The position numbers and the translations under genes were made by a program. From a virus, in IMG/VR virus record IMGVR_UViG_3300004807_000172, positions 1 to 20,428 of that record: 20,428 bases of DNA. One strand, 5' to 3'. The number at the start of each line of letters is the position of its first letter. Within the stretch, counting starts at the first letter, position 1. Shown here piece after piece: positions 3,655 to 14,043 of this stretch. The notes beneath the pieces were generated by a model that did not search any database, was not told the origin of the DNA, and saw only the letters and a program-made list of their open reading frames with translations.

Positions 3655-4770
3655 ATGGAAGGCTTTAAAAAGATAGTTAAAATGAAGACAGGCGGCGGCG
3701 TGTCTAAGGCTGTAGCTAAGTGCTACGGCGGCAAGATGAAAAAAGGCGGCGAAGTAGATGCTGCTGACATCAAGCAAGATAAAGCAATTGTTAAAAAAGC
3801 CTTTGCTATGCACGATAAACAAGAGCATGGCGGTGAAAAGACTGATCTTTCCAAACTCAAGCGTGGTGGTCGTTCTAAAAAAGAATGCGGAACTGTACGT
3901 AAATACAAGACCGGTGGCTCTGTAACCAACGTTTACGAAGCTAAGAAATCTTCTGGTGACTTAGATAACATCCGCAAAACCAAGTTAATCAAACCCGGTA
4001 AAGCAGATGCCCCATCTAAAGCAGCTGTAAAAAGCAAAGATGTTGGTGCAAAAACCACTGGTGCATCTGGTCACAAAGACCCGTACATTAAGAGCAAAGA
4101 ATCTGGTAAAACAGCTGCAGCCCCATCTGGTGCTAAAGGTGGACCAAACAAATATAAGTGCGGCGGCAAAGTAAAGAAAATGGCTGGTGGTAAACAAGTA
4201 GGTGCTTCAGCAGCACAACAAAAATACTACGATAAAAACATGGCTGAAGGCGACAAAAAAGCAGCAAAAGCTGATTACGAAGCCTTTGGTTCACGTGGTG
4301 ATGCAGCTCGTAAGGGTATGTCAGAAGGTCGTATGGACGCGCTTGGTAATGCGTATAAGAAGGGTGGCAAAGCAAAAGTAAAAAAGTTTGCTGACGGCGG
4401 CTATACTGGTGACGACCCTATTGTTAAGTATCGTATGGGTATGACAGACGCCGCTGGTAATCCAACAACACCAACTCCAGCTGCTGCCCCAGCTCCTACA
4501 GCACCTAATCCAGCTATGATTGAAGACGAAAGCGATCGTGGCAATGTAAGCCCAGCTGCTGCAGCTTTCAACAAAGATATTCCTGGCGCAGGTCCTGTTG
4601 CTACTGCAATGCGTCCTACTCCAAGAGTACGTCGTGTTACAGCAATGAAAAAACCTGGCATGATTGATAACCTTTTAGCTAAGCCAAGCGTTAAAAACTT
4701 CCTAAACAACTTTAACCAGTCTGCTTTAGTAGGTGCTAAAAAAGGCGGCAAAATTAAAGGTAAATGCTAA
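3655..4770 (+). CDS. Lys/Gly-rich basic protein with repeated GGK motifs, function unknown
   Basis: This is a 371-residue, very basic, low-complexity protein with GAGGA seven bases before ATG 3655. A motif of the form GGK-x-K recurs: CYGGKMKKGG (23-32), CGGKVKKMAGG (169-179), KKGGKAKVKKFADGG (near 236-250) and KKGGKIKGKC at the very C terminus. Related Gly-Gly turns occur near 70 and 87. Four cysteines (23, 78, 169, 371) lie in or beside these basic patches. Residues ~40-72 form a small helical module (DKAIVKKAFAMHDKQEHGGE). A Pro/Ala-rich linker occupies ~275-290. No enzyme motif is visible. Similar patchwork basic proteins occur in aquatic phage structural regions. DNA binding, or packaging as a virion protein, is a guess from charge and location. 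It is the first gene after the terminator. Confidence 0.6.
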   Translation: MEGFKKIVKMKTGGGVSKAVAKCYGGKMKKGGEVDAADIKQDKAIVKKAFAMHDKQEHGGEKTDLSKLKRGGRSKKECGTVRKYKTGGSVTNVYEAKKSSGDLDNIRKTKLIKPGKADAPSKAAVKSKDVGAKTTGASGHKDPYIKSKESGKTAAAPSGAKGGPNKYKCGGKVKKMAGGKQVGASAAQQKYYDKNMAEGDKKAAKADYEAFGSRGDAARKGMSEGRMDALGNAYKKGGKAKVKKFADGGYTGDDPIVKYRMGMTDAAGNPTTPTPAAAPAPTAPNPAMIEDESDRGNVSPAAAAFNKDIPGAGPVATAMRPTPRVRRVTAMKKPGMIDNLLAKPSVKNFLNNFNQSALVGAKKGGKIKGKC

Positions 4771-4942: not shown

Positions 4943-6013
4943 ATGGCGTACAGCAACACAACTGGTCAAACAACAATCAATGTTGACCAGTTAATTTCAT
5001 ACGCGTTTCGTGACTCCGGCAAAGCTGCTGAGGAAATGACACCTGAGCTAGTTAACGCTGGCAAGCAGGCGCTATTCTACAATTTACAAAACCTTTCTAA
5101 TCTTGGTGTAAACCTTTGGTTATTGGATAACATTCTGTTGGGCGCTCAAACCGACCAACAGATTTTAACGCTTCCAAAAACAACCATTGACATCCGTGAA
5201 GCTAACTGGGTTTATGTTCAAAACATTGCCCCAAACGCAGCTCTTCCAGCGGATAATGCCGGCGCTCCTAACTTATTTACTCAGTCCTTACAAAGCGGCC
5301 ACGCCACTTCTACGCTAGCTGAAAACTGGTTTGGCGCTGCATACAATCCAGAACAACGAGTATTTTACGTTGGTTTTAACGCATACTCCCCAGGTACAAC
5401 CACCACATACAATCTTATTTATGAGACCAGCTATGATGGTGTTACTTGGACCAACCAGCAAGTTCTCCCATCTACCACATTAAGTGATTATCAATGGGCT
5501 TACTTTAATATCAATATTACACAGAATTATGGATTCTATCGCCTGCGTAACGCAAGCACAACATCCACGTTCTCCTTACGTCAGATAGTATTTTCACAGT
5601 CACAACAAGTCATTCCTTTGGCTCGTTTAAACCGTGATGATTACTGGAATCTGCCTAATAAGCAATTCCCGTCTGTTCGTTCTTTGCAATATTGGTACGA
5701 TCGTCAGATCGAACCACAGATGTATCTTTGGCCTGTACCAAACAATGATTTCCAAATGTTTCAGCTTGTTATTGAAAAACAAATGGAAGATGTTGGTTCA
5801 TTAACAAATCAAATCTACGTACCAGATCGCTGGATTAACTCAGTGCAGGCCACATTGTCGCACCGTTTATCCCTACAGATTCCTGGTGTGGATGCAAACC
5901 GTATTCAGTATTTAGAAGGCTTGGCAGAGAAATACTTCATGCAAGCTAACAATGAAGAGCGTGATAAGTCACCTATTTACTTCCAACCTAACATAAGCTA
6001 CTACACAAGATGA
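4943..6013 (+). CDS. Neck/tail adaptor-like structural protein with inserted beta domain
   Basis: This is a 356-residue protein starting directly after the previous stop. The N-terminal ~90 residues are helical (VDQLISYAFRDSGKAAEEMT, KQALFYNLQNLSNLGVNLWL), as in adaptor proteins that dock under the portal. Residues ~110-215 look like a jelly-roll-type insertion (YNLIYETSYDGVTWTNQQ, YGFYRLRNASTTSTFSLRQI). The C-terminal part has DDYWNLPNKQFPSVRSLQYW and PQMYLWPVPNND, a pattern I associate with structural proteins encoded just before the hub protein in podoviruses. It then ends in helices. The role, a ring between portal and tail nozzle, is inferred from position beside a second adaptor and the gp10-like hub. 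It shares four bases (ATGA) with the next gene. Confidence 0.6.
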   Translation: MAYSNTTGQTTINVDQLISYAFRDSGKAAEEMTPELVNAGKQALFYNLQNLSNLGVNLWLLDNILLGAQTDQQILTLPKTTIDIREANWVYVQNIAPNAALPADNAGAPNLFTQSLQSGHATSTLAENWFGAAYNPEQRVFYVGFNAYSPGTTTTYNLIYETSYDGVTWTNQQVLPSTTLSDYQWAYFNINITQNYGFYRLRNASTTSTFSLRQIVFSQSQQVIPLARLNRDDYWNLPNKQFPSVRSLQYWYDRQIEPQMYLWPVPNNDFQMFQLVIEKQMEDVGSLTNQIYVPDRWINSVQATLSHRLSLQIPGVDANRIQYLEGLAEKYFMQANNEERDKSPIYFQPNISYYTR

Positions 6014-6624
6014 GCGTAATAATGACTTACGATTCGCTGGTGTTGAACATCCAGCAATACATGGAGCGCGATGATGCTGATTTCGTTGCTCAGATTCCTA
6101 ACCTTATTGCGTTGGCAGAATCATCTATTGCTGCAGAACTCAAGACATACCTCCAGCTTATCGTAGTAGAAACCAATCTGGCAACTAACCAGACTGTGCT
6201 TAATAAGCCAGCTCGTTGGCGTAAAACTGTTTCTATGAAAGTCAATGGCAAACCAGTGTTGCTTCGTAGTCAAGATTATGTAGCTCAGTATCTTTCAGAA
6301 TCTAGCAACGCCCAGCCACAGTACTATTCAGAGTACGATTATAATAACTGGAATTTTGCGCCATCTCCAGACACAAGTTATCCAGTGGAAATTATTTATT
6401 ATGCTGAAGTGCAACCATTGGATGCAGTAAACCAACAGAATTTGTGGACAGCTATTGCACCACAAGCTATGTTATATGGTGCGCTGTTACAAGCTCAAGG
6501 ATATTTAAAAGCATTAGATAAACTGCCTGTTTGGAAAGGCTATTATACAGATGCTATTGCAGCACTTAAGAAAGAAGACAATTCTCGCCGTGTGGATCGT
6601 AACACTTCGGTACAGGAACCCTAA
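6010..6624 (+). CDS. Phage adaptor (head-to-tail connector) protein
   Basis: This is a 204-residue protein. Early residues form helices (YDSLVLNIQQYMERDDADFV, AQIPNLIALAESSIAAELKT). A beta section follows (RWRKTVSMKVNGKPVLLRSQ, NWNFAPSP, YPVEIIYYAEVQPL), then a closing helical region (APQAMLYGALLQAQGYLKAL). This order matches the adaptor family known from podoviruses such as SU10, whose ring joins the portal to the tail nozzle. Start ATG 6010 overlaps the previous stop (ATGA); ATG 6022 is an alternative. No strong ribosome site is seen, consistent with translational coupling. The assignment is fairly good by pattern and supported by the adjacent hub gene. Confidence 0.7.
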   Translation: MSVIMTYDSLVLNIQQYMERDDADFVAQIPNLIALAESSIAAELKTYLQLIVVETNLATNQTVLNKPARWRKTVSMKVNGKPVLLRSQDYVAQYLSESSNAQPQYYSEYDYNNWNFAPSPDTSYPVEIIYYAEVQPLDAVNQQNLWTAIAPQAMLYGALLQAQGYLKALDKLPVWKGYYTDAIAALKKEDNSRRVDRNTSVQEP

Positions 6625-6627
6625 TAT

Positions 6628-7896
6628 ATGACTACTCCAGTTTACGTATCCCCCTTTACAGGTACAGTAGTAACTGCTACTGATGTATCTTACTATGCTC
6701 TTGCATTTAGTTCAAATACGCAGCTTTTCTGGCCTTCTACAGTTAACAATAGCCAAACACCAGCGGCCCGTATTATTGATTGCGTTGCTTCTACTTCTGG
6801 CCTTGTTATTAAATTACCTCAAGGCAATCAAGGTACATTGGGTGCGGATATTCTATTCCGTAACTTAGGTGCGCAACCATTTACTATTACAGATTATAAT
6901 GGCGGCGGTTCTTTTACTGTTCCGGTTGGTATTTCTAAATATGTATATCTTGTTGATAATACAACTGTAGCAGGTGTTTGGAACAACGTAACATTTGCAG
7001 CTGGTACATCTTATGCTGATGCAGCGTCATTAGCAGGTTCTGGTTTAACAACTGTATCTGGTAAATTAGCAACAACACAAAATCCTATTGATTTAACAAC
7101 TAGCCCTGTTATTAACGATAACAGCCGTGCAGCTACCTTTGTTTGGAACTCCGGCGTTGGTACGTTTACACTTCCAGCAATTTCTAGTTTATCAACAGGT
7201 TGGTATATTGGTTTCCGTAATAACGGAACAGGCTCATTAACAATTAACCCAACATCACCAAATACAATAAATGGCTTTACAACCATTACAGCAAATCCTG
7301 GTGATTCAGGGTTTATTATGCTGGATTCAAACAATGGTGGTTTTATTACCGTTGGTTTAGCTCCAGCTAATAACGTTACATTTACAGCAGCTACATACGA
7401 TGTTGATACTATTCCTGGTAATACATTTAGCTTAACTTCGTTTGCTCCAATCATTCAAACCTATATTGCTCAGACTACCACTCGTACAGCAACACTAGCA
7501 GTAACATTACCAGCGATTACCCAGATTTATATTTTAGTTAATAATACTAATCAAACTGGCTATAACATTACATTCCAAAACCAAGGCAGCTCACAGCCAC
7601 CATTGGTGTTATCTGCAGGTAACGTATTAACTGTTCTTAGCGATGGTTTAAATTTATTCCCATTAACAACCGCATCCACCGGTTTGTTCTATGCAGCAAA
7701 CGGTACTGCTGCCCTTCCTTCGTATTCCTTTAACAATGATACAACTACAGGCATGTACCTTGTCGGTTCTTCTATTCTTGGTTTAACAGCTAACGGCCAT
7801 GAAATTATTCAAATGGATAACTCAAACTTATCTGTACCTCTTGTAACAGTAAACGCAACTCTTAATGCCCAATTAATTCCTGGTGGGACGTTCTAA
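6628..7896 (+). CDS. Tail-fibre-like protein built from three beta repeats
   Basis: This is a 422-residue Thr/Asn/Gly-rich protein preceded by AGGA. It contains three diverged copies of a beta unit around 'h-x-LP ... h-x-F-x-N-x-G ... I'. The LP landmarks are at residues 63-64, 182-183 and 294-295, and the matching turns are ILFRNLGAQPFTI, IGFRNNGTGSLTI and ITFQNQGSSQP. The C terminus has PSYSFNNDTTTGMY then GLTANGHEIIQMD. This is the widespread phage fibre motif (PxYxFxxDxxTGMY...xxG) found near tail fibre ends. Being encoded between the adaptor and the gp10-like hub suggests a fibre or appendage attached at the neck or nozzle. No enzymatic motif is visible. Its stop abuts the next start. 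Confidence 0.65.
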   Translation: MTTPVYVSPFTGTVVTATDVSYYALAFSSNTQLFWPSTVNNSQTPAARIIDCVASTSGLVIKLPQGNQGTLGADILFRNLGAQPFTITDYNGGGSFTVPVGISKYVYLVDNTTVAGVWNNVTFAAGTSYADAASLAGSGLTTVSGKLATTQNPIDLTTSPVINDNSRAATFVWNSGVGTFTLPAISSLSTGWYIGFRNNGTGSLTINPTSPNTINGFTTITANPGDSGFIMLDSNNGGFITVGLAPANNVTFTAATYDVDTIPGNTFSLTSFAPIIQTYIAQTTTRTATLAVTLPAITQIYILVNNTNQTGYNITFQNQGSSQPPLVLSAGNVLTVLSDGLNLFPLTTASTGLFYAANGTAALPSYSFNNDTTTGMYLVGSSILGLTANGHEIIQMDNSNLSVPLVTVNATLNAQLIPGGTF

Positions 7897-10062
7897 ATGG
7901 CGGCTGATAATCAGCAACAGGATACCTCGCAATATACTTCGATTTACTCACTGGCTATTCCAGCGGGTATCAAGCGCGATGGTACTCAGTTTCAAAACGA
8001 CCAATACACCGATGGTGTGTGGTGTCGTTTTCAGCGTGGTGATCCTAAAAAGATAGGAGGCTACCGCACACTGTTTCAAAGTCTTGTTGGTATTTATCGC
8101 GGAATGATAGCTCAACCATTTAATGGTGTTAACTACATTTTTGCTGGTAACTACCAAGAGCTAGACGTATTTACAACTGGTACTACATACGCAACTGGTA
8201 GTGGCCCATTTAAAGTTAACATACTTCCAGGAACAACGTATGTAACTTTGGTATCTAATACAACGTCTTCTTTTGTTGTAGCCGGCAACCAAACAACTTT
8301 ATTTCCTACTGGTACTAAAGTTATTTTTACCCAAACTGGTACACCAACAGTGTATACAGTTAGTACATCTACATTCTCTACACCAAATACTACAGTAAAC
8401 GTTACTGGCGGATCTATTTCCGGTACACCAACCAAAGTATGGATTGACAATACTCCCGTGTTTACTAGTGATGTAGATCTTCAAACAGACCCATCAATTG
8501 GTAACTATCGTGTTACTTGGCAGTTTGATTCAATCTTTAGCCCATCCGGCGGCAATCTTCAAGTATTAGCACATCCAGGATACAACTTAGAAAATATTGA
8601 TAACGGTGTTGTAAGTCAAGTTCTTATTGGAAACATTACGCCAGACTCAACAGATACTTGGAACTTTACTGGCTTATCTGATAGCGCAGGTCAAAACCCA
8701 ACATATAAACCAATTAGTGTTGACGGCGGCGTTTGTGTTCTGTATCCATTTATATTTGTTTACGGTTCTAGTGGCTTTATTGCCAATAATAATGTAAGCA
8801 CTACATACGCATCTCAAAGCCCCTATGATTGGAATGGTACATTTGCCAATCAGGTAAACGTAGCCTCATCAAAGATTGTTAAGGGTATGCCAATGCGTGG
8901 TGGTACTAACTCACCATCGGGTTTATTTTGGGCCACTGACTCCCTTATTCGTGCTTCTTTTAACTCCCAAGCAACTGGAATTTATTGGACGTACGATATT
9001 ATTTCTAGCCAAATTTCTATCATGTCTTCCAACGCTGTTGTGGAGATGGACGGAATTTATTTCTGGATGGGCGTTGATCGTTTCTATCTATATAACGGTT
9101 CTGTACAAGTATTACCAAACGATAAAAACGTAAACTGGTTGTTTAACAACATTAACTACGAACAACGCCAAAAAGTGTGGGCTACTAAGATTCCACGCTA
9201 TAATGAGATTTGGTTCTTTTACCCTCGTGGTACCGCAACAGAATGTACAGATGCTATTATTTATAACGTAAAAGACAAGCTCTGGTATGATGCTGGTCAA
9301 GCAACAGGTGCTCAACGTTCTTGTGGATATACTACAGAAATTTTTCCAACACCTATTTGGGCTGATTGGAATTATAATCCAATTTTTAGTAGAACATTTA
9401 ATGTTATTGCACACCCAGCTAGTTTACCCGCTCCAAACGCTAATCAATTTTATTTAGCTGGCGATCAAACAATTGGATTTAGCCCGGGTGACTCAGTATC
9501 ATTTAGCAACACAAACAGTTTTAATAAAACTTATGTTATTACAAATAGTACCAATATTTATAATACAACTGTAGTTCCACCGGGTGTTACTCGGATAACT
9601 GTTGCTGAAAACTTTTCCCCTAGTCCAACCGTTGGGGAATCAGTATACAGCGTTGCAGGTGGGTTTAATATTTGGCAACATGAATATGGTCAAAATGAAA
9701 TTGCACTAAATGGTGAATTTGCTATTTACTCTAGCATTACTACCAGCGACATTGGCTGGTTAACAGGTACGCCAAGCCAAGATGGTTTAGTTGGGGTTAA
9801 CCGACGTATGCACTTGCGTCGTGTTGAGCCAAACTTTTTACAATCCGGCACAATGTCTATGAGCATTTTAGGTCGTAAGTTTGCTGGCAGTCCAATGCAA
9901 GAAATTGCGGGACCATATTACTTTAACCAAGACACTGGTAAAATTGATTTACGTGTAGAATACCGTTTAGTTCGTTTAAAATTTGAATCTAATGTAATTG
10001 ACGGTAATTTTGAAATGGGTCGCAATTTAATTACAGCAGAGTTTGGCGATGAGCGCCCTTAA
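7897..10062 (+). CDS. P22 gp10-like hub / tail nozzle (packaged-DNA stabilisation) protein
   Basis: This is a 721-residue protein starting on the base after the previous stop. Near the N terminus, DGVWCRFQRGDPKKIGGY (39-56) matches the 'D-x-x-R-F-x-x-G-x-x-x-K-I-G-G' pattern typical of P22 gp10-type proteins, which plug the channel below the adaptor and form the nozzle. The middle is propeller-like (AVVEMDGIYFWMGVDRFYLY, WATKIPRYNEIWFFYPRG). Two related beta insertions interrupt it at about 124-172 and 516-565. The C-terminal ~120 residues (RRMHLRRVEPNFLQSG, YRLVRLKFES) also fit this family. In P22 the hub follows the gp4 adaptor gene; here two adaptor-like genes precede it, separated by a fibre-like gene. 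Confidence 0.75.
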   Translation: MAADNQQQDTSQYTSIYSLAIPAGIKRDGTQFQNDQYTDGVWCRFQRGDPKKIGGYRTLFQSLVGIYRGMIAQPFNGVNYIFAGNYQELDVFTTGTTYATGSGPFKVNILPGTTYVTLVSNTTSSFVVAGNQTTLFPTGTKVIFTQTGTPTVYTVSTSTFSTPNTTVNVTGGSISGTPTKVWIDNTPVFTSDVDLQTDPSIGNYRVTWQFDSIFSPSGGNLQVLAHPGYNLENIDNGVVSQVLIGNITPDSTDTWNFTGLSDSAGQNPTYKPISVDGGVCVLYPFIFVYGSSGFIANNNVSTTYASQSPYDWNGTFANQVNVASSKIVKGMPMRGGTNSPSGLFWATDSLIRASFNSQATGIYWTYDIISSQISIMSSNAVVEMDGIYFWMGVDRFYLYNGSVQVLPNDKNVNWLFNNINYEQRQKVWATKIPRYNEIWFFYPRGTATECTDAIIYNVKDKLWYDAGQATGAQRSCGYTTEIFPTPIWADWNYNPIFSRTFNVIAHPASLPAPNANQFYLAGDQTIGFSPGDSVSFSNTNSFNKTYVITNSTNIYNTTVVPPGVTRITVAENFSPSPTVGESVYSVAGGFNIWQHEYGQNEIALNGEFAIYSSITTSDIGWLTGTPSQDGLVGVNRRMHLRRVEPNFLQSGTMSMSILGRKFAGSPMQEIAGPYYFNQDTGKIDLRVEYRLVRLKFESNVIDGNFEMGRNLITAEFGDERP

Positions 10063-10375: not shown

Positions 10376-10870
10376 ATGTCCTCATTTGTTGATTCTAAAC
10401 ATCAAAAGCTAAGCCAAGAGGAAATCTTTGCAATTGCTGCCAAAGAGACTGGCGGTAAATACACGCCTGAACAAATTAAGGCAAGTGTAGCTTTAGAGGT
10501 ATCACAATTGCATGCTCTTTGTATGCAGCAGGGCAATACTATTTTTATAGTACATCCAACACCCGTGGATAAAACCATTGGTGTTTTTCGTGCTTTAAAC
10601 GCCGATACAATGCCTAACTACTTAAAGAACAGTTTAGTATTTACTAAAGCCATGGGTTTGGCTGGGTTTAAACATCTGGTTACTCAATTTGAAGAGCCTT
10701 CTTTATTAAATATTTTTAAATACGTTAAACGTAATCGCCCGTTTCCTAACATGGGATATATGGTTCAAAAAACTAAAGATCACCAATATAAAGTTACTGT
10801 CAATTTAGGCGACGCTAAAAAAGGTGGTCTCCCAGACCAAGCACAACCTCAAGAACAAGGGGCGCTATAA
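10376..10870 (+). CDS. Probable internal virion protein, possibly GNAT-fold-like
   Basis: This is a 164-residue protein starting after an A-rich AAAGAG region. After a helical start, the core reads like an alpha/beta fold: GNTIFIVHPTP, then KTIGVFRALNAD, then a helix with MGLAGFKHLVTQFEEP, then FKYVKRNRPFPNMGYMV. This order loosely recalls GNAT acyltransferase folds, which occur in some internal virion proteins of T7-like phages. The acetyl-CoA binding loop (R/Q-x-x-G-x-G/A) is not evident, so activity is doubtful. It is the first gene after the terminator and motif at 10315-10355 and overlaps the giant downstream gene by one base (TAATG). Its place before the ejection proteins is similar to that of gene 14 in P22. 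Function is inferred. Confidence 0.45.
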   Translation: MSSFVDSKHQKLSQEEIFAIAAKETGGKYTPEQIKASVALEVSQLHALCMQQGNTIFIVHPTPVDKTIGVFRALNADTMPNYLKNSLVFTKAMGLAGFKHLVTQFEEPSLLNIFKYVKRNRPFPNMGYMVQKTKDHQYKVTVNLGDAKKGGLPDQAQPQEQGAL

Positions 10871-13800
10871 TGGGTGGAGTGGCAGATGCAGTTTCTAACG
10901 TAGTAAGTGATGTTGGTGGTGCAATTGGCGACGTTGTAAATGCCGTTGGTACTATTGCAGAAGATACCGTCCACGTTGTTGAGCAAGCTGCTAATACTGT
11001 AGGACATGCTTTAGAGTCTGTTGGTAGAACGGTTGTTAATGATCCTATAGGCACACTTGCCAAAGTTGGTGCCGTTGTAACACAACAGTATTGGGCTTTG
11101 CCACTTATTTCTGCTGCAGACGTAGTTGCTCATGGTGGTAACTTAGAACAAGCCGCTATTGCTGGCGGGGTATCATATATTGGTGGTAATATTGCTGCGG
11201 GTGTTAGTGATGCTTTAGCAACTAGCGCAGATTCAACATTGCAAGGCGTTCAAACAACAGCAGACGGTAGCACAGTGTATACCTATAGTGATGGTAGCAC
11301 AATGACTCAAACTGCTGCCGGTGAAACTTCATACACAGATCCAACTGGATTAAGTCAGGGCACAGCAAATGCTCTTGGTGGTGCTGCAGCAAATGCTGCT
11401 AAAACACTAGTTCAAACAGGTGATATTACTAAAGCAATTACATCTGGTGCTATTAGCGGAGCTGGTGGTTATCTTGGTTCAGAAGCTAGCGGCGCCCTTC
11501 AAGGTGAGGGTGTTAGTACAGGAACTGCCAACGTAACTGGTGGTATTGCTGGTTCTACAGCAGCTGGTATTCTTGCAGGAAAAACCGGCAGTGATGCGTT
11601 AGCTGGTGCAATTTCTGGTTCCATTATGAAAACTGTAATGGGTCAAGCTAGTAGCACATTAAAGTCTGCATGGAATGATGTAAATAATACGGTTACAGAA
11701 TATAATACTCAGTTAGATTCTGCAAAACAATTTTTATCAAACGAGTTAACACCAGCACAACAAGACGCAACTGCAGCACAAACTGCTGCTAAAACATCTT
11801 ATGATAATTACAATAATTTAAATAGTCAATTTAATGATTTAGTAAGCAAATATAATGATGCTAAAAATTCTGGTGATACTGCATCTGCAAATACTTATGC
11901 TGATCAAGCTAATGCGTTAATACCACAATTAAACGCAGCTACAGACCAGTATAACAAAGACGCTGGAACTTACCAAACAGCCTTAGATAAATTTAATAAT
12001 TTAAATAGCCAGTTTACAGACACAACTAGTAAGCTGTCAGATTTAAAGAATACATACTCTGAACAAAACGCAGCACTAACGCAACAATCCGCAGAGTTGC
12101 AAGCCGCGGCTCAAAAAGTTGCTGGTATGTCTACAGAAGCACAAACAGCGTTTACAAATGCAACAAGCACTGGCGCTGATGTTGCAACAGCATTAGATAC
12201 AACTACTAAAGTTAATAGCATGAATGATGTTGCACAAACAACATTTAATAGACAGTTTGCTGAAAATGGTAGTTTAACAGATTCATTAAACCAAGCTAGT
12301 ACTGTTAATTCTTTAGATTCTAATCAGTTATCTGCTTACACTCAAGCAGTTAAAAACAATTTGAATTACGACCAGTCTTTGACTGTAGCAAGTAACGCCG
12401 CTAATTTTAATGCCGCCGGTCAAGACGCGTATGCTCAAGCATTAAAAGCTGGTAATAGTGCGCAAGATGCTTCAGAATTGGCATTGTTAACACAAGTAAC
12501 AGCACCGGATACACCATCTATAACTGGCAGTGATGTAGTAGGTGCTTTAACTGGTAGCTCGACTGCAAACGCAGCGGAAACACCGGCACCAGCTAGTACA
12601 ATTGAGGGTAAGTATCACCAAGACCCAAGCACAGGTATGTGGAGTGTTGTTGGGGCAGGGCCAGATGGTAAACAAGTTACATTAGTTCCTTTAGCTCAAG
12701 GAGCAGGTGCTCCACTAGTTGAAGGCGCTTCCGCTGGTCAATATAGCCTTGGTGCAGATAATACTGCGGTTCCTGTTTCATCTACCCCAACATTGGTATC
12801 TGAAACAACGGACCCAACAACTGGTAACGTAACACAAAAACTTAGCGATGGTACAACTAAAGTATTAGATGCTAATGGTGATCCTGTTGCAACAACAAGT
12901 CCAAGTCCAACAGAAGCCCAACCAGGTGTTACAGGAACAGAAACACAACCTCCCACAACAGCATCTGATAGTTCTTCTGGAACAGGTGGACCATCTATTG
13001 CTTCGGCATTGACAAACACAACAGGTTTGCCAGTTGGTGGTACACCTAGCAGTACAGGTACAGCTCCTGTAAAAGCTCCCCTAGTATGGAGCCCATCTTT
13101 AGGTAAATGGATTCCAGCTGGTTCTGCCGCAACTGCTGCGGCTGCAGCGGCACCGGTAGCTTCTACTACTGCAACAGCACCAGCAACTACAGCACCAGCA
13201 ACAACACCAGCACCAGTTGCTAGTACAGACATTAAAGATTTAACCCCAGGTTTAACTAAAGGATCTGAGTTTAAATTTGCTAATGAACCAACGTTTACAC
13301 CGCAATTAACCCAAATGCCACAACAGGCTATTAACCCAGACTATGCGACTGAAATTATGAGTGCAGCTACAGGCGGATCAACTAACAACGCTAATACAAC
13401 TTCATCGTCAACTATTACGGATTTGACTCCGACGTTGACACAAGCTGGTAATAAGTTTAAATTTGCATCTTCACCAACATTTACACCGGGTACATTTACC
13501 CCTGTAATGACTGGTGCTTTACCATCGTCGCAAAACATTTTAGCTGCTGCAACAGGCGGTCAAGTTCCTGGATATGCTGAGGGTCAAAGCGTTCAAATAC
13601 CAGATGCCCCATCACCCTATTTGCGTCCAACATTAACACGTGGTCGTGGTTTACAACCATTTAGCCATTTTGGTGGTGCTCAGTTCCCAGGATACCAGCC
13701 ACAGCGTTTTGCTGCAGGTGGTAGTCCAGATATTCCAGAAGGGCATGATCCACAGTTCTTTAGTGAAGGTGGTTTAAACTCATTAGAAAACAAATTTGTT

Positions 13801-14043
13801 ACTGGTGACGGTGACGGAACTAGCGATAGCGTAGCAGCTATGCTGGCAAAGGGTGAGTTTGTAATCCCTGCTGATGTAGTATCAGATTTAGGAAACGGTA
13901 GCAACGATGCTGGTGCAGAAGTTCTTGATGAGTTCTTAAAAACAATTCGTGAGCACAAACGTGCAGCAGACGCAAAAAATTTACCGCCCGACAGTAAGGG
14001 CGCCCTCGCATATTTATTAGACGCAAAACGTAAGGTAGGCTAA
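10870..14043 (+). CDS. Large probable ejection / internal virion protein with internal repeats
   Basis: This is a 1057-residue protein with AAGGGG at 10857-10862. In order it shows: an Ala/Val/Gly helical N terminus (1-75); Gly/Ala-rich small-residue stretches (~90-250) that could insert in membranes; a Gln/Asn-rich coiled-coil section (~270-418) with a duplicated NNLNSQF; four exact-length 31-residue repeats (419-542); a Pro/Thr/Ala linker (~550-785); and a 61-residue tandem repeat (788-909) that starts DLTPxLT. The end has small Gly-rich motifs (FAAGGSPD, FFSEGG) and a module GDGTSDSVAAMLAKGEFVIP then LGNGSNDAGAEVLDEFL, which recurs at the ends of many aquatic phage structural proteins. No catalytic residues are seen. 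Role in a trans-envelope DNA channel is inferred from size, composition and position. Confidence 0.6.
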   Translation: MGGVADAVSNVVSDVGGAIGDVVNAVGTIAEDTVHVVEQAANTVGHALESVGRTVVNDPIGTLAKVGAVVTQQYWALPLISAADVVAHGGNLEQAAIAGGVSYIGGNIAAGVSDALATSADSTLQGVQTTADGSTVYTYSDGSTMTQTAAGETSYTDPTGLSQGTANALGGAAANAAKTLVQTGDITKAITSGAISGAGGYLGSEASGALQGEGVSTGTANVTGGIAGSTAAGILAGKTGSDALAGAISGSIMKTVMGQASSTLKSAWNDVNNTVTEYNTQLDSAKQFLSNELTPAQQDATAAQTAAKTSYDNYNNLNSQFNDLVSKYNDAKNSGDTASANTYADQANALIPQLNAATDQYNKDAGTYQTALDKFNNLNSQFTDTTSKLSDLKNTYSEQNAALTQQSAELQAAAQKVAGMSTEAQTAFTNATSTGADVATALDTTTKVNSMNDVAQTTFNRQFAENGSLTDSLNQASTVNSLDSNQLSAYTQAVKNNLNYDQSLTVASNAANFNAAGQDAYAQALKAGNSAQDASELALLTQVTAPDTPSITGSDVVGALTGSSTANAAETPAPASTIEGKYHQDPSTGMWSVVGAGPDGKQVTLVPLAQGAGAPLVEGASAGQYSLGADNTAVPVSSTPTLVSETTDPTTGNVTQKLSDGTTKVLDANGDPVATTSPSPTEAQPGVTGTETQPPTTASDSSSGTGGPSIASALTNTTGLPVGGTPSSTGTAPVKAPLVWSPSLGKWIPAGSAATAAAAAAPVASTTATAPATTAPATTPAPVASTDIKDLTPGLTKGSEFKFANEPTFTPQLTQMPQQAINPDYATEIMSAATGGSTNNANTTSSSTITDLTPTLTQAGNKFKFASSPTFTPGTFTPVMTGALPSSQNILAAATGGQVPGYAEGQSVQIPDAPSPYLRPTLTRGRGLQPFSHFGGAQFPGYQPQRFAAGGSPDIPEGHDPQFFSEGGLNSLENKFVTGDGDGTSDSVAAMLAKGEFVIPADVVSDLGNGSNDAGAEVLDEFLKTIREHKRAADAKNLPPDSKGALAYLLDAKRKVG
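11809..12015 (+). repeat. Duplicated NNLNSQF block in coiled-coil region
   Basis: Residues 314-321 (YNNLNSQF) and 375-382 (FNNLNSQF) of the 1057-residue protein are near-identical and 61 residues apart, each followed by a similar Ser/Lys/Asp-rich helix. The underlying DNA (from 11809 and 11992) is also similar, suggesting an internal duplication. Confidence 0.55.
12124..12495 (+). repeat. Four tandem 31-residue protein repeats
   Basis: Residues 419-449, 450-480, 481-511 and 512-542 each have exactly 31 residues. The approximate pattern is x-[MLF]-x-x-x-x-[QL]-x-[AT]-[FY], then a polar helix, then a hydrophobic residue at position 24 or 26. Units start GMSTEAQTAF, SMNDVAQTTF, SLDSNQLSAY and NFNAAGQDAY. 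DNA identity is low, so the duplication is old and the length is conserved. Confidence 0.65.
13231..13596 (+). repeat. Two tandem 61-residue protein repeats
   Basis: Residues 788-848 and 849-909 align without gaps at their starts: IKDLTPGLT...FKFANEPTFTP and ITDLTPTLT...FKFASSPTFTP. Both copies end near an AATGG. The repeat sits between the Pro/Thr linker and the C-terminal module of the 1057-residue protein. Confidence 0.65.

Follow-up and report, generated by a model that had tools for sequence, protein, structure and literature searches.

Two homologous small beta modules in the nozzle protein of a short-tailed phage

The nozzle gene and its surroundings

The window discussed here is a stretch of 20,428 nucleotides that makes up positions 1 to 20,428 of an IMG/VR virus record (IMGVR_UViG_3300004807_000172). 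It encodes a nozzle protein carrying two inserted segments, here called modules A and B, and the family to which they belong is referred to as module W. The following features, with blade numbers that are our own count from the strand list of a predicted model and not a three-dimensional measurement, are used throughout:

6010..6624, plus strand: adaptor protein (PF24175 SU10_adaptor, E 1.5e-19, above the cut-off)
6628..7896, plus strand: tail-fibre-like protein, 422 aa (phrog_28766 tail fibre, E 3.4e-5, over 40 residues only)
7897..10062, plus strand: nozzle (hub, 'tubeB') protein, 721 aa, a propeller scaffold with two inserted modules
8218..8472, plus strand: module A (residues 108-192), between propeller blades 2 and 3, absent in GB2A
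8239..8406, plus strand: part of module A aligned to B (residues 115-170; hhalign, strand register)
8590..8721, plus strand: site C (residues 232-275), in blade 3, with no module in the window and module S in the ctpbd312 group
9352..9369, plus strand: PIWADW (residues 486-491), which probably corresponds to where the short-fibre dock loop of SU10 begins
9394..9660, plus strand: module B (residues 500-588), at the edge of blade 1 after a conserved PIW, absent in GB2A and ctpbd312
9415..9606, plus strand: part of module B aligned to A (residues 507-570; hhalign, strand register)

The adaptor gene lies two genes upstream of the hub gene, with the fibre-like gene between them. The adaptor is preceded by a 356-aa protein (4943-6013) that has no Pfam family and a weak PHROG match (phrog_12985, 4.8e-4), and positions 3655-4770 hold an ORF of 371 aa that is rich in Lys and Gly, repeats short GG/KK stretches and matches no PHROG or Pfam family. 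By eye, the C-terminus of the protein at 10870-14043 has an GEFVIPADVVSDLGNGS-like stretch in common with the C-terminus of a 640-aa ORF in one of the related loci (L144). The carriers of this stretch are large, otherwise dissimilar proteins encoded downstream of the hub. Nine of the 21 relatives from bacterial assemblies bear betaproteobacterial names (including Burkholderiales, Limnohabitans and Nitrosomonadales), among them L246, the sole bacterial-assembly relative close to the window's group. From these names, the window phage may plausibly have a betaproteobacterial host, bearing in mind that bins can contain stray phage contigs.

The 721-aa ORF at 7897-10062 is the nozzle protein of a short-tailed phage. 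It matches phrog_3287 (virion structural protein) at E 2e-24, and a scaffold profile of 68 sequences (A1), searched against the PDB, finds the nozzles of Pa223 (9nwi, E 4.6e-15) and VP1 (8zkk and 8zkm, E 4.1e-10). Its central, channel-lining part is homologous in sequence to podovirus nozzle proteins of the T7 gp12, SU10 gp17 and Pa223 type. Solved nozzle relatives consist of a platform and a seven-bladed beta-propeller that gates the DNA channel. The AlphaFold2 model of the hub (pLDDT 85.5, pTM 0.85) has this platform and propeller fold, with a Foldseek match at E 2.4e-22. Fold comparison gives Z 26.8 for the Pa223 nozzle (rmsd 2.9, 459 aligned of a 512-residue chain, 19% identity), Z 25.3 for VP1, Z 25.2 for SU10 (rmsd 3.4, 468 aligned) and Z 21.5 for P22 gp10. 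The sequence-only reading had called the scaffold P22 gp10-like; the fold is indeed common to both proteins, but the nozzles of Pa223, VP1 and SU10 score higher. Pfam includes a model of P22 gp10, and the whole 721-aa protein matches no Pfam family, that of P22 gp10 included, at E <=0.1. The window's nozzle would presumably assemble as a hexamer under the ring of the adaptor.

Likeness of modules A and B

The sequence-only reading had proposed that one small domain was inserted or duplicated twice in the hub, based on a pattern (F-x-x-A-G-x-Q-T-x-x-F-x-x-G-x-x-V-x-F) common to two segments. The pattern is present at residues 126-144 and 518-536, with FVVAGNQTTLF beginning at residue 126 and FYLAGDQTIGF at residue 518. 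Segments A and B are homologous: a small beta domain of common descent occupies two sites of the scaffold, and relatives without the module exist. To compare them, profiles of A (residues 108-192) and B (residues 500-595) were made from 78 alignment rows that exclude GB2A and ctpbd312 (62 / 60 distinct segments), with the IMG/VR relatives being the best 80 of 204. Aligned with hhalign, the two profiles match with a probability of 94.9% (E 4.3e-8, score 44.7), or 93.7% when insert states are removed (E 2e-7, score 41.4).

Several controls put these scores in context. Of 91 pairs of stretches taken from this one protein, the top two (40.1 and 35.9) are those that contain A and B, followed by a pair scoring 21.0. 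The maximum over 60 column shuffles is 18.9, a reversed profile scores 10.5, and in 24 comparisons with the fibre-like protein (12 stretches, each aligned to both A and B) the highest score is 15.2. The unrelated modules Y and S, which are found in other hubs, score at most 14.1 against A or B. Profile searches also detect the relationship reciprocally. In 31 records of the window group, a profile of A plus the fibre copy described below matches B in 15, and the B profile matches A in 9 (E <=0.1 per record). Of the 135 distinct complete hubs of the window group, 102 have their B recognised by a profile built solely from site A, and 47 have their A recognised by one built solely from site B (i-E <0.01, 281 hubs searched).

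The likeness extends to the predicted strands. Module A has strands at residues 114-121, 125-129, 141-143, 153-161, 164-170 and 180-183, and module B at 517-521, 533-535, 545-554, 564-569 and 582-595. Over the 56 aligned residues, three-state agreement is 82%, a value that none of 537 other placements reaches (best 77%). Structure prediction, which could have revealed two different folds, instead puts the core strands of both segments in the same register, as read from the strand list of the predicted model; the sole exception is the first strand of A (114-121), which is coil in B. A second part of the original observation, a later NTTV motif common to both segments, fared less well. NTTV does occur at residues 164 and 556, but the profile alignment shifts by 7 residues near its end and places the NTTV of A (164-167) opposite GVTR of B (564-567), a pairing with which the predicted strands at 164-170 and 564-569 agree. 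Because the profiles do not align the two NTTV, their occurrence in both modules is probably incidental.

The window's sequence taken alone gives a local alignment score of 63 for A against B (shuffles: mean 36.6, sd 6.7, highest 73), and its significance is only moderate as 3 of 1000 shuffles score as high. Convergence or chance between Ser/Thr/Asn-rich beta segments, for which one may cite these shuffles, the 15 of 500 that score as high in L080's own hub and the unaligned NTTV, is highly improbable given profile scores about twice those of every control of similar composition, the agreement in strand register and the failure of modules Y and S, which occupy comparable sites, to match A or B; chance or composition bias is rejected by several kinds of control.

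Insertion sites, their contents and the module fold

A and B are insertions because the hub of the Caulobacter phage GB2A (510 aa) aligns along the scaffold without either of them, an alignment that the sequence-only reading had suggested as a check. In the predicted model, blades 2 and 3 would flank A, and B would lie at blade 1, ahead of its closing strand. Comparable positions are used in other nozzles. In the SU10 nozzle, additional domains are set between blades 2 and 3, and blade 1 bears a loop that docks the fibre (PMC9509320). In crAss001, the inserted domains IG1, likewise between blades 2 and 3, and IG2, within blade 3, are similar in topology (PMC10172136), and in T7 a tip domain emerges from a loop of blade 3 while a fibre dock joins propeller and platform (PMC6702177). 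Within the PIWADW motif ahead of module B, W488 and W491 are invariant in all 158 complete hub ORFs of the window group (duplicates included). When the window's hub is aligned by hhalign to the single SU10 gp17 sequence, P486-W488 pair with the Trp 839 segment, W488 falling on W839 (E 1.2e-4, probability 56%). From this mapping and the W488/W839 pairing, site A appears to correspond to the tip-domain site of nozzles, and site B probably to the fibre-dock site, the latter by a modest score against one SU10 sequence.

What occupies these sites was compared across related hubs, which we sorted by best-matching query protein and not by tree (P0002, the window; P0003, GB2A; P0004, ctpbd312). Viral scans took the best 80 loci out of 204 to 525 relatives each. 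The 343 hub ORFs include 331 complete ones, of which 281 are distinct; 10 incomplete ORFs, a fragment (L257) and a remote hub (L266) were left out. One locus (L265) has no ORF of 400 aa, and two others (L039 and L343) are the same contig. A site was called filled by length, and its module type was assigned by profiles and by eye.

In the window group (best 80 per scan), both sites are filled in all 135 distinct complete hubs, and in each of them the A profile matches site A and the B profile site B. The GB2A group (72 distinct hubs) has site A empty in 68 and occupied in 4 by a module with a different sequence, whereas site B is short in 61 and empty in 11. In the ctpbd312 group (74 distinct hubs), site A is filled in 65, all 65 with a match to module Y there, and empty in 9; module S matches at site C in 74 of 74, and site B is empty in 73. 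The ctpbd312 hub itself lacks B and has other content at A. Module W profiles have no match in hubs of the GB2A or ctpbd312 groups at i-E <0.01, and no relative with only one module W was found among the 281 distinct complete hubs (best 80 loci of 204 to 525 per scan). The exception at site B in the ctpbd312 group is L250, where module Y is present (99%, E 4.9e-18); module S matches at both B and C in this hub, the match at B being weak by hhalign (E 5.7e-4).

Some side observations concern the same sites. The L250 hub (828 aa, from a Limnohabitans MAG), with module Y flanked by S-like sequence at B, is another hub with one family at two sites, and one window-group hub also gives a match to the Y profile at site A. 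At site B, members of the GB2A group (e.g. L084, L088, L111 and L124) carry short R-[IV]-T-[EQ] repeats, with three exact copies in 61 of the group's 91 hub ORFs and two in 15 (duplicates included). They stand at the same place as the three-Trp dock loop of SU10, which binds a trimeric fibre, and by analogy might possibly be a three-fold dock of another kind.

Module A folded alone is predicted with a pLDDT of 87.4. Its best match among solved folds is a six-stranded barrel of a K1 capsule lyase (7w1d, about residues 135-234; Z 8.2, rmsd 3.7, 79 aligned, 16% identity), a score close to those of other, unrelated small barrels, which run from Z 7.8 down to about 6. Uba1 chains, matched in what we take to be the E1 FCCH domain, score Z 5.9-6.0 without a sequence match. 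Among predicted structures, the matches are mostly unnamed viral proteins and some tail fibres, with six predicted viral proteins matching at E <=0.001. As many unrelated small barrels score around 6, the model of module A reads as a small beta-barrel and nothing more specific, and this predicted fold itself points to neither carbohydrate nor fibre binding.

Family searches add no name. The window's own copies of A and B match no Pfam family at E <=10, and within each module alignment, any given Pfam or PHROG family matches 4 members at most (best E 0.0019). For Ig-like Pfam families, aBig_2 is matched by 2 of the 31 rows of alignment A2 (best E 0.056), and an Ig family by none of the 30 rows of A3. 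A known domain name for module W was sought in PHROGs, Pfam and PDB sequences, which gave nothing consistent. With tblastn, 50,697 phage records hold no relative of A or of the fibre copy at E <=10, and B gives only two matches, both at E 9.

The fibre copy is a third module W, located in the homologues of the adjacent fibre gene of L070 and L080. It is rare, being found in 2 of 156 fibre ORFs or 2 of 128 distinct ones (the window's included; best 80 per scan). By profile it matches A (75%, E 2.6e-5) and not B. In pairwise comparison, it beats 500 of 500 shuffles against A; against B it does so in L080 and beats all but 2 of 500 in L070. A fibre-like gene of L144 that matches the A profile at E 1.6e-4 was left uncounted, as it appears by eye to hold a different C-terminal fibre domain.

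Origin and possible roles of the modules

The modules diverge much faster than the scaffold that carries them. In 75 hubs less than 90% identical to each other, scaffolds have a mean pairwise identity of 0.733, against 0.455 for A modules and 0.451 for B modules. The similarity between A and B of the same genome exceeds that between genomes in 38 of the 75, i.e. it is no higher, so the two copies would have separated before the group diversified; judged from these sequences, the A/B split appears to be old. Distances of A and B correlate at 0.09, and the notion of a co-adapted A-B pair was rejected on this lack of correlation. Three disjoint parts of the scaffold correlate at 0.65-0.80 with each other, and A or B with them at 0.24-0.39. 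Short variable segments correlate less anyway, as illustrated by a 39-residue loop (232-270) used as yardstick, which gives 0.49-0.59 with the scaffold parts. The nearest neighbour of a module is that of the central scaffold in 23 of 75 hubs for A and 21 for B, compared with 29 and 26 for the scaffold ends. Certain relatives differ mainly in one module, such as L274 and L270, with 85% identity in the scaffold, 91% in B and 46% in A. Such pairs would fit a replacement of modules one at a time, although near-saturated four-fold sites leave room for fast divergence, which could reflect relaxed constraint.

How one family came to occupy two sites can be approached with a tree of 52 modules (25 A, 25 B and 2 fibre copies; few columns, no outgroup). 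In it, B is separate from A with support of 100/100. The fibre copies sit inside A on a long branch, above a fork (starred in the tree) with 99/94 support, and apart from L070's own A, only one of their two genomes being represented. A single internal duplication, from A to site B or the reverse, before the group diversified and without an outside donor, is a serious contender, though we would not assume it. It would account for both modules being present in 135 of 135 distinct complete window-group hubs, for the two well-separated sets of the tree (B 100/100) and for the 38 of 75 that indicate an old split. The same outgroup-less tree is equally compatible with two acquisitions, however, and modules do move in this family, as seen from the fibre copies in L070 and L080 and from module Y, which in the ctpbd312 group mostly stands at A (65 of 74 distinct hubs) but in L250 at B.

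As to function, we consider it likely that the window encodes a nozzle with two copies of barrel module W, serving as exposed, exchangeable contact modules at the tip and the fibre dock. At two sites of the nozzle, members of one small beta-barrel family are inserted. A may make contact with the cell surface or with neighbouring subunits at the nozzle tip, while B, at the edge of blade 1 and next to the probable fibre dock, may act in fibre docking or spacing. Both modules would change fast since they face variation of the host or the fibre. Exposure and a contact function are what we infer for A and B, and neither is expected to be an enzyme.

A quieter role is conceivable, in which the modules are structural glue between neighbouring subunits, unrelated to host contact. 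Precedents come from the SU10 nozzle, whose domains touch each other and the neighbour's fibre dock (PMC9509320), and from the 'rider' of the K1 lyase, the best fold match, which stabilises the trimer, though it is also involved in polysaccharide binding (PMC8822698). We regard this as unlikely, because many relatives have empty sites and because the divergence of A and B, far faster than that of the scaffold and uncorrelated between the two, is unlike that of a conserved interface. Quite improbable is a homotypic docking code, in which the barrels of nozzle and fibre pack together and keep the fibre in place until it is freed by contact with the receptor; if it were true, a module copied to a new site would be a new docking point. 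Uncorrelated divergence of A and B, and a fibre copy in only 2 of 128 distinct fibre ORFs, argue against a fixed A-B contact of this kind.

The nozzle and its modules can be compared with known systems. SU10 gp17 (Kuravirus; PDB 7z47 and 7z4b) is similar in its scaffold fold, and the window also encodes an SU10-family adaptor nearby. It differs at both sites (PMC9509320): in SU10 the first holds four Ig-like domains and the second just a loop with three Trp, whereas the window's nozzle has one homologous barrel at each. The crAss001 muzzle gp44 (PDB 7qol), a seven-bladed nozzle with two inserted domains, is a precedent for a matched pair; these domains are Ig-like and not the window's barrel, and the second site is in blade 3, not blade 1 (PMC10172136). 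The Pa223 nozzle (9nwi, 512 residues in the chain) is the closest solved scaffold and, judged from its length, would be too short for both modules, and the GB2A hub (510 aa) is a sequence relative without A or B. Like module A, the K1 lyase 'rider' is a small beta-barrel that a phage virion protein carries in one of its loops (PMC8822698), but its host protein is a beta-helix, and no sequence link to module A was found. Accessory domains, Ig-like ones among them, that are shuffled between phage virion proteins (PMC10684548) are like module W in being small modules that recur in different proteins. Module W has no convincing Pfam or PHROG match and is not Ig-like by family search. Ig-like domains among phage virion proteins are said to have been reported by Fraser in 2006.

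Insertions at these nozzle sites are already known, and so are paired Ig-like insertions in one nozzle. The window's barrel pair, a full domain at the blade-1 site and the comparative series seem to be new; no description of the A/B barrel pair was found in the accessible papers that were searched. Relatives have the sites empty or filled with unrelated modules, so the pair looks like a swappable virion decoration and not a new type of system. In podovirus nozzle (tubeB) proteins, the outer, variable part can change as entire small domains are gained, lost or replaced. Depending on the related group, a shared set of two or three sites is empty or holds module W, module Y or S, or short repeats. 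These hubs thus form a natural series for asking what nozzle decorations do in adsorption and fibre attachment.
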